Shown one piece after another: positions 2,932 to 15,860 of a DNA stretch of 34,169 nt. The notes under the pieces are model-generated. The model had not been told where the DNA came from. It made no database searches and saw only the letters and a list, made by a program, of their open reading frames with translations. The DNA is taken from contig CANPZX010000009.1 of NCBI GenBank assembly GCA_947589195.1, positions 1 to 34,169 of the forward strand, given 5' to 3'. The translations under genes were made by a program, and so were the position numbers. Numbering within the stretch: the first letter of the stretch is position 1; each line of letters opens with the position of its first letter. This DNA is from an uncultured Bacilli bacterium. Its GTDB lineage: Bacteria; Bacillota_I; Bacilli_A; RF39; UBA660.

Positions 2932-3005
2932 GGGTCTATAGCCAAGTGGTAAGGCGTGGGACTGCAACTCCCTGATCGTTGGTTCAAATCCGACTAGGCC
3001 CTCCA
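2932..3005 (+). tRNA. tRNA-Cys (GCA)
   Basis: Acceptor gggtcta/taggccc, loop ctGCAac, T-arm ggttcaaatcc, encoded CCA. Confidence 0.93.
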
Positions 3006-3097
3006 AAATTGTTTATAACTTGCTTAAATGATGTTATGTACTTAGTACCGGAACATTCAATATCGTGTTATTAATTGTAGCCTAATAAATTTTGACT

Positions 3098-3125
3098 CCA
3101 CCTAAATCATCACTGATTTAGGTGG
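3098..3125 (+). terminator. Hairpin after tRNA-Cys
   Basis: ccacctaaatcatcactgatttaggtgg followed by attactttta. Confidence 0.6.
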
Positions 3126-3266
3126 ATTACTTTTATATAGAGTTAAAAAATATTTCTTGTTTATCCTTATTAAATGTTCTAATAATAATTATAATTTGAG
3201 AACAAATGAACAAATTAAAAATTTTTATTGCTTTTTTGTTAATCATTTGATATTATTTTAATGCAC

Positions 3267-14380: not shown

Positions 14381-15130
14381 TTATTTTATAATAAAATTAA
14401 TAGTTTCTTTTAAAGCCAAGTCCATACTATTTTCATCATGAAATCCATGATCAGCATTTTTAATCAATACTAATTTAGAATTTTTACATTTTTTAGAAAT
14501 TTTTATAGAAGATTTATAATTTACATAAGAATCATTAGTACCATGAATAAACAATTTGGGAACCTCCCATTTATATAAATTTTTATAGGCAAAATATTTT
14601 CTTTCATCGACAAAATAATTGTAACTTAATTTTATTCCTTTTTCTATACAATAATATCCTTGTCTTTTAGCTATTTTTTCCTTTTTTGAAGGTAAATTAA
14701 AGATTTTCCTAAAATAGTCTAAGGCGCCATACCAGAGAACTATTTTTTTTATGTTAAATTGATTATAATTGACAAGAGATATAATTCTTGCACCCATACT
14801 ACATCCGATTAATATAAAATCTTTAAATCCATAGTCTACTTCCATTTTATATAATGTATCATTTAGATTATTAACCATATTTGTAACAGTATAATCTGAC
14901 ATATTTCCAGAAGATTCTCCACATGCAATAAAATCAAATCTAAAATTATTAATATTAGACTTTGATAACATATCAGCTAATAGTGTTGTTGGTCTAGAAT
15001 CCTTACTACTGGTTCGTGCATGACAAATGATAACTAACTCATTCGTGTTATTAACTTTATTTAGTATTCCGCACAACTTTGTCTTACCTGAAAAATAAAA
15101 TATTTTTCCTTTCATATTTTTATCATCCAA
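14381..15130 (-). CDS. Alpha/beta hydrolase
   Basis: LIGCSMGARI nucleophile elbow, C-terminal NADHGFHDE. Confidence 0.85.
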   Translation of the reverse strand: MDDKNMKGKIFYFSGKTKLCGILNKVNNTNELVIICHARTSSKDSRPTTLLADMLSKSNINNFRFDFIACGESSGNMSDYTVTNMVNNLNDTLYKMEVDYGFKDFILIGCSMGARIISLVNYNQFNIKKIVLWYGALDYFRKIFNLPSKKEKIAKRQGYYCIEKGIKLSYNYFVDERKYFAYKNLYKWEVPKLFIHGTNDSYVNYKSSIKISKKCKNSKLVLIKNADHGFHDENSMDLALKETINFIIK

Positions 15131-15302
15131 TTCTATTTTTTCAAATATTGCATATTTAGTTTATCAATATGCAAATATGTTTCCTCAATTGTCATAAATT
15201 TAGTAAGTGTTGAATAAAGAACGCTTGCTTGATATAGCTTTATTAGGAATTATTTAATAGTTGGGTGCTACCTCTATCTTTACAGATTGGAGGTGATGCT
15301 TA

Positions 15303-15386
15303 ATGAATAAGAAAGATTTTTTAATCTTTGCTTTAATCGTTGCCATCCTTTTACTTATAGCATTACTTTTCGTAATTCTAAATTAA
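15303..15386 (+). CDS. Candidate type I toxin, 27-aa single-TM peptide
   Basis: MNKKDFLIFALIVAILLLIALLFVILN*; strong ggaggtgat SD; 5' agttgggtgc (15259-15268) complementary to 3' gcacctaact (15391-15400). Confidence 0.6.
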   Translation: MNKKDFLIFALIVAILLLIALLFVILN

Positions 15387-15445
15387 AAGTGCACCTAACT
15401 CAAACAGTTTAAATTAGGTGCTACACAAGTCATTTGGGTAACACT

Positions 15446-15480
15446 CAACACTGCAATATTGAATGTTCCTTTTTTATTTT
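15446..15480 (+). terminator. Rho-independent terminator after the small ORF
   Basis: aacactcaa...ttgaatgtt stem followed by ccttttttatttt. Confidence 0.55.
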
Positions 15481-15510
15481 ATGCAAGTTTTCCGAGTTTA
15501 CAATCAATTT

Positions 15511-15860
15511 TGGTGGAGCAGAGGGGATTCGGACCCCTGTCCAATATACCCTATCATACAATTTCTACAAGTTTAGCTAGATTTTTTATTTCATTATATA
15601 ACTGGCTATAGCTTACCTATTATATAACTAGTTTAATAAATATTCATTATTTAATCTTAAACAAATTAAATAATATATCTTATATAAGCGAACCTCTAAA
15701 CTATCCTATAAGCAAAATAATCTAGAAGTCTCCAAGCCTTTAACTAGGCAAATACAGGAGTGAAACCTTTAGTTTCGTTATTTATTTTTGGGTGCATTTA
15801 AGGTATGCCTACCACTTGCCATCATATGTAGTAATAACTGTCGAAACCAAATACTGCCCC
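15511..15860 (-). ncRNA. ssrA: tmRNA (ssrA)
   Basis: RC 5' GGGGCAGTATTTGGTTTCGACAG...; 3' GGACAGGGGTCCGAATCCCCTCTGCTCCACCA; acceptor GGGGCAG/CTGCTCC; tag frame ends ...KINNETKGFTPVFA*. Confidence 0.95.

Follow-up and report, generated by a model that had tools for sequence, protein, structure and literature searches.

We analyzed a 34,169-nt window of DNA from an uncultured Bacilli bacterium, in which a short open reading frame (ORF) lies beside the tmRNA gene. The original prediction had proposed a 27-aa ORF with a strong Shine-Dalgarno (SD) sequence at this site, and both proved real (Table 1). The tmRNA gene, which Rfam detects and ARAGORN did not report, is convergent with the putative toxin mRNA and co-directional with the predicted antisense RNA. 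The locus, which adjoins the tmRNA gene, is one copy of a conserved element of about 250 bp. A second, degenerate copy retains the antisense half and no toxin ORF, directly downstream of tRNA-Cys (2932-3005). In other genomes, this tRNA-Cys site holds copies of the element (L025, L059).

Table 1. Features of the tmRNA-adjacent locus and of the second copy in the window
Feature	Position	Strand	Description and basis
Toxin promoter	15210..15238	+	-35 TTGAAT, 17-nt spacer, -10 TATAGC; predicted from aligned copies
Predicted mRNA 5' end; long-distance interaction (LDI) 5' arm	15246..15267	+	GGAATTATTTAATAGTTGGGTG; covariation, MFE fold
DR1, 5'-UTR repeat	15260..15272	+	GTTGGGTGCTACC; direct repeat with 15414-15424; covaries with hairpin arm 15391-15400
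SD-sequestering stem-loop	15270..15294	+	ACCTC...GAGGT; MFE fold, inner stem covaries in the family
SD	15289-15297	+	GGAGGTGAT; read from the sequence, conserved across copies
Putative toxin ORF	15303-15386	+	27 codons; single-TM hydrophobic peptide MNKKDFLIFALIVAILLLIALLFVILN
Predicted antisense (antitoxin) RNA	15381..15490	-	Read from ~15490 to ~15381; family alignment
Hairpin H1, predicted antisense RNA terminator	15391..15421	-	ACTTTTAATTT comes next on the minus strand
DR2	15413..15424	+	ATTAGGTGCTAC; complementary stretch of the antisense RNA would serve as seed for DR1; same arm covaries
Predicted toxin mRNA terminator and LDI 3' arm	15437..15481	+	GGTAACACTCAAC (15437-15449), TATTGAATGTTCC (15457-15469), T-run (15470-15481); near-invariant T-run, LDI covariation
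tmRNA gene	15511-15860	-	Rfam E 2.4e-48
Second degenerate copy, antisense half only	3023..3165	-	nhmmer E 8.4e-13; covariance model R1 E 8.4e-5

The toxin peptide had no match above threshold in Pfam, NCBIfam, PHROG, PADLOC, or PDB searches, and an Rfam scan of 15190-15510 gave chance-level matches only and no known antitoxin RNA family; known toxin families were therefore rejected as its identity. Copies of the element were gathered by DNA search of the window's own genome and 100 relatives, with counts resting on model searches. The 189 loci obtained correspond to 186 distinct elements of one architecture, 127 of which carry an intact ORF, defined as one that passes a filter for SD, position, and hydrophobicity. 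The intact peptides are hydrophobic, mostly 24-30 aa long, and belong to at least five types: 27 aa (xKKDFLI...), 30 aa (MKTKTFIIKVLKLIAIILFLLIIMIVVIKK-like), 29 aa (MKKKDLLISFL...), 25 aa (MTKREFSQFIIILLLFLVVIILLLK-like), and 24 aa (MTKKDFLIF...). Related copies differ mostly synonymously, and dN/dS across five length classes was 0.16, 0.17, 0.19, 0.18, and 0.39 (from pairs that are not independent), indicating that the reading frame is under purifying selection. As in type I toxin genes, the product is a small hydrophobic peptide with an SD and conservation at the protein level. Twelve genomes harbored 6-16 copies each, the maximum being 16 in a genome of ~1.2 Mb.

We then compared the RNA features of the copies. 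At the toxin promoter position, the aligned copies share TTG..N17..TATAAT, and the -10 of the window, TATAGC, is weaker than the family consensus TATAAT. The predicted mRNA 5' end is GGAA(C)ATTTAATAGTTGGGTG in the aligned copies. The original prediction had set this end at AGTTGGGTGC, which is a genuine pairing arm, and the family alignment moves the start to ~15246 (GGAATTATTTAATAG...), ~13 nt upstream. The proposed foldback between AGTTGGGTGC (from 15259) and GCACCTAACT (15391-15400) is present, and its arms covary in 50 aligned copies: 93.3% of cells are paired and 57 show two-sided change, against 14.8 in shuffles (0/500 reaching the observed value), while the count of pairs showing two-sided change is unexceptional (39/500). 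A second proposed pairing, AGTGTTGA with TCAACACT, was rejected as coincidental. Its arms lie 3-4 nt from where they had been placed, at 15206-15213 and 15445-15452; the first overlaps the predicted -35 box upstream of the predicted transcription start and is thus outside the mRNA, and perfect 8-nt pairing is confined to 3 of 107 copies. CACTCAAC (15442-15449) pairs instead with GTTGGGTG (15260-15267).

The aligned copies have in common the SD stem, H1, and a terminator whose sequence complements that of the mRNA 5' end; on the plus strand, the T-run follows the second hairpin and extends to about 15481. Named pairs were tallied on 50 aligned copies. Across 41 pairs, 87.9% of 2002 cells were paired and 32 pairs showed two-sided change; none of 500 shuffles reached the observed covariation, and slid partner controls paired at 35-47%. 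In the LDI, 26 pairs covary with the terminator region, and H1 shows two-sided changes in 10 of its 11 pairs. Cognate 5'-3' duplexes averaged -27.3 kcal/mol versus -17.0 for partners of other types, and exceeded same-type partners by 4.2 kcal/mol (P 7.5e-9, with related copies treated as independent). Duplexes of the antisense sequence with DR1 gave -16.9 kcal/mol for cognate partners and -12.3 for other types. Compensatory changes therefore support four RNA features: the 5'-end/3'-terminator LDI, the SD stem, the antisense terminator hairpin, and the 5'-UTR repeat complementary to the antisense RNA. Conservation of the pairing arms had been named as a check on the original prediction, and in these copies the arms covary on most measures. 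Compared with dinucleotide shuffles, a 170-nt stretch of the mRNA gave a folding z of -4.1 and the minus strand -4.9, and the LDI, the SD stem, and H1 all form simultaneously in the MFE fold of the whole window mRNA (-58.5 kcal/mol).

On the minus strand beyond the toxin T-run, the family shares a block with a TTGTCA-like -35, N17, and TATTAT, then GTCAAG-GAAA-CTTGCATAAAATAAAAAAGGAACATTC..., which would supply the predicted antisense RNA with a 5' hairpin, CAAG-GAAA-CTTG (stem variant GAAG/CTTC). Promoter-like sites scoring at least 9/12 occur here in 111 of 127 intact copies versus 54 of 150 shuffles, and sites scoring at least 10/12 in 70 of 127 versus 8 of 150. A -10 candidate under the T-run, TAAAAT, was rejected as the family antisense promoter because TTGTCA-N17-TATTAT, further upstream, is better conserved. 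The predicted antisense RNA would cover the T-run, terminator hairpin, and DR2 before stopping at H1, the one terminator-like site in 15100-15560 (minus strand; 0.1 expected in shuffles). At the level of conserved sequence signals, this agrees with the earlier suggestion that a minus-strand RNA ends at the 15391-15421 hairpin. Because DR2 lies within it, the antisense RNA is complementary to DR1 in the mRNA 5' UTR, and DR1 is predicted to be a target of both the antisense RNA and the mRNA's own 3' end. The element thus appears to carry a gene for an antisense RNA that is complementary to the toxin mRNA.

From these sequence comparisons, we consider it highly probable that the element is a type I toxin-antitoxin module, as originally proposed. 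This interpretation is supported wherever the comparison can test it, by the conserved hydrophobic peptide, the SD hairpin, the covarying foldback, the minus-strand signals, and a biased loss of halves described below. The plus-strand mRNA would encode a 27-aa membrane peptide, probably toxic if overproduced. In the full-length message, about 21-25 bp would join the 5' end to the 3' terminator, and a hairpin would sequester the SD; as a result, translation is predicted to stay silent until the 3' end is shortened. The antisense RNA, encoded under the 3' UTR and ending at the 15391-15421 hairpin, would pair perfectly with the mRNA 3' end, while its repeat would pair with the stretch of 5' UTR that immediately precedes the SD; this pairing may block translation, open the duplex to RNase III, or both. 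We infer the transcription of both RNAs, the silencing, the toxicity, and the involvement of an RNase.

The window copy itself may be decaying, given its weak -10 and the absence of the antitoxin promoter and 5' hairpin. It is ~65 nt shorter in this region than tmRNA-linked copies such as L019, so that the usual TTGTCA-N17-TATTAT promoter and CAAG-GAAA-CTTG hairpin are truncated, and its LDI 5' arm contains one inserted base relative to the family. It is a serious possibility, though on balance a doubtful one, that this particular copy is a dying relic, poorly expressed and no longer working: its ORF, SD, and pairing arms are intact, and the LDI still forms in the whole-mRNA fold. Such a state of one copy would be compatible with a type I function of the family. 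With the antitoxin promoter lost and no terminator-like site found by a terminator scan between the tmRNA gene and H1, the antisense RNA of the window may be made by read-through from the tmRNA gene. The window's own TTGTAA-16-TAAAAT is a possible alternative promoter.

To characterize broken copies, we used two models: an antisense (3') covariance model, R1, and a 5' model, R2, which covers types I-III only and uses sequence without RNAalifold base pairs. R1 identified 122 antisense modules at E below 1e-3 in 12 genomes, 65 of which lacked a 5'-model partner. Among the 41 of these that were read individually, 22 had an intact ORF by script and three more on reading, and in at least 14, again by reading, the 5' half of the toxin was replaced by unrelated sequence. 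Conversely, the inspected part of the R2 matches without R1 contained no clean deletion of the antisense half; these were contig-edge cases, a G025 variant with a 3' end missed by R1, and IS insertions. This asymmetry is an approximate count, as R2 is limited to types I-III and visual inspection decided some of the calls. Addiction would be expected to leave copies of this kind, in which the antisense half survives and the toxin half is lost. The G025 copies (L069, L057, L210, L211, and L214) represent a variant element with another 3' end, CCTATATTTATTATATG, and were mostly missed by R1.

Insertions of IS elements into H1 or the ORF were found in L208, L209, L217, and L218. The H1 loop is split by an IS in L074, L208, L209, and L217, separating the toxin from the antisense gene. 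At least three of these copies (L074, L209, and L217) keep an intact toxin ORF despite the split, which counts against the toxin-antitoxin interpretation; a remnant of the antisense gene may persist beyond the IS in them, as traced for L074 alone. In L208, the IS in H1 is accompanied by a mutated SD. Single-TM peptides also act as regulators, and the toxicity of this peptide is a prediction; it could therefore be an ordinary small membrane protein, such as a regulator or stress peptide, that is controlled by antisense RNA and non-toxic. We regard this as improbable in view of the many paralogous copies per genome, the recurrent loss of the toxin half from copies that keep the antisense half, the three layers of translational silencing, which are more typical of toxins, and the coincidence in L208 of an interrupted antisense module with a mutated SD.

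The copies are also linked to genes for translation RNAs. Of 169 copies with enough flanking sequence, 76 (about 45%) have a tRNA or tmRNA gene within 250 nt downstream, convergent in all 76 cases and mostly 95-105 nt from the T-run. The linked genes are Leu, Arg, Met, Thr, Lys, Ala, Glu, and Cys tRNAs and tmRNA, and among loci picked without the 3' pattern, 24 of 75 have one within 160 nt. In tRNA-linked copies, an inverted repeat with a T-run lies between the tRNA and the antisense gene, overlapping the antitoxin -35 region. Most of the same-genus tmRNA loci inspected lack the element beside the tmRNA gene. A tRNA/tmRNA 3' trailer motif, GATTGATA..AAACTCGAA..TTCGAG, is common to many tRNA-linked copies and also occurs at an element-free tmRNA gene (L203). 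This linkage and the high copy number, together with the frequency of degenerate copies and of matches at contig ends, would suit a non-autonomous mobile repeat conserved by recent spread at tRNA ends, with an incidental ORF, but purifying selection in five length classes and compensatory RNA pairs require a function beyond spread and make this explanation very improbable. Spread and toxin-antitoxin function can coexist. An origin as a mobile element carried by plasmids or phages was rejected, as the viral, plasmid, and phage collections searched contained no match to the element.

Within the type I interpretation, fused copies raise a further point. In L055, the toxin and H1 are intact and a tRNA gene directly adjoins the element in a fusion; L013 is fused to tRNA-Met much as the window copy is to the tmRNA gene. 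L013 and L055 are independent of each other, and in both the antisense strand is joined to a tRNA gene without the family antitoxin promoter. We tentatively suggest, as an idea that more probably fails than holds, that the element is a self-multiplying type I module parked at tRNA/tmRNA 3' ends, and that fused copies (the window, L013, and L055) make their antitoxin as a tmRNA or tRNA 3' trailer. If so, toxin repression would depend on the transcription and processing of a translation RNA. The open-literature titles and abstracts searched contained no obvious earlier case of a type I antitoxin linked to a tRNA or tmRNA gene, and the linkage raises the question of whether transcription of a translation RNA can yield an antitoxin as a by-product.

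A single family of uncultured gut Bacilli accounts for almost all occurrences of the element. Among 296 genomes of the class, R1 matched 25 of ~38 genomes of the same family and one genome of another family. The latter, G242, has a single strong R1 match, for which transfer and contamination are both possible. Exact matches to the 3' module came from MAGs, most of them titled uncultured Bacilli and a few Clostridia, Tenericutes, Erysipelotrichaceae, or Ruminococcus; Candidatus Onthousia and Ventrenecus were also among them. The home group of the element is probably the GTDB order RF39.

Finally, we compared the element with known type I systems. The likeness to Fst and AapA noted in the original prediction is apt, in the direct repeats and 5' stem-loop of Fst/par and in the 5'-3' LDI of AapA. 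Fst/par (pAD1 RNA I/RNA II), of the Fst/Ldr superfamily, has convergent RNAs, direct repeats, an SD-sequestering 5' stem-loop, a sequestered mRNA 5' end, and a small TM peptide (PMC7472228). The element resembles it in its predicted convergent RNAs, in having one repeat within the toxin 5' UTR and another opposite the antisense RNA, in its SD stem-loop and sequestered mRNA 5' end, and in its small TM peptide. However, the Fst peptide has a PXXXG(C) motif and a charged C-terminal tail, and by eye the element peptides have neither; the window peptide contains no proline, and no Fst-family match appeared in Pfam, NCBIfam, or PADLOC. Fst/par also uses a shared bidirectional terminator, whereas H1 resembles a terminator solely on the minus strand and the toxin mRNA has a separate terminator downstream of the antisense RNA, which is therefore nested in the mRNA 3' UTR. 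Because of these differences in peptide and terminator, we do not file the element in Fst/Ldr, although the direct repeats and 5' SD stem-loop of that group are present.

In AapA/IsoA and hok/Sok, a 5'-3' LDI closes the full-length mRNA beside SD-sequestering hairpins, and there are several chromosomal copies (PMC6733600). The element shares the LDI, which is supported by covariation, cognate preference, and the MFE fold, as well as the SD hairpins and multiple copies, in a phylum different from that of the Helicobacter AapA/IsoA and of hok/Sok. Unlike in AapA and hok, its antisense RNA lies opposite the 3' end of the mRNA and is predicted to contact the 5' UTR by way of a repeat, and 3'-end activation of their kind is for the element a proposal. 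TxpA/RatA and BsrG/SR4 of Bacillus subtilis are convergent genes whose antitoxin overlaps the toxin mRNA 3' end (PMC4147584). The element has the same layout and overlap, but its 24-30-aa peptides are unrelated by family search, it adds a 5'-UTR repeat and an LDI, and it was not seen in the phage or plasmid collections searched. The type I modules of Clostridium difficile are, like the element, multi-copy and convergent, with antisense RNA over small hydrophobic peptides, and some of their antitoxins are linked to RNA features such as c-di-GMP riboswitches (PMC6563280); their neighbors are CRISPR arrays or prophages, whereas those of the element are tRNA/tmRNA genes.

The type I systems of uncultured gut Bacilli would gain a peptide family that matches none of the searched libraries, and with as many as 16 covarying copies in a ~1.2-Mb genome, there are many natural variants for testing the orthogonality of RNA toxin-antitoxin pairs. 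The best explanation of the module is one that joins Fst/par-like repeats with a hok/AapA-like LDI and this peptide, combining two regulatory schemes that are usually described apart: par-like repeats and the 5'-3' lock of hok and AapA.
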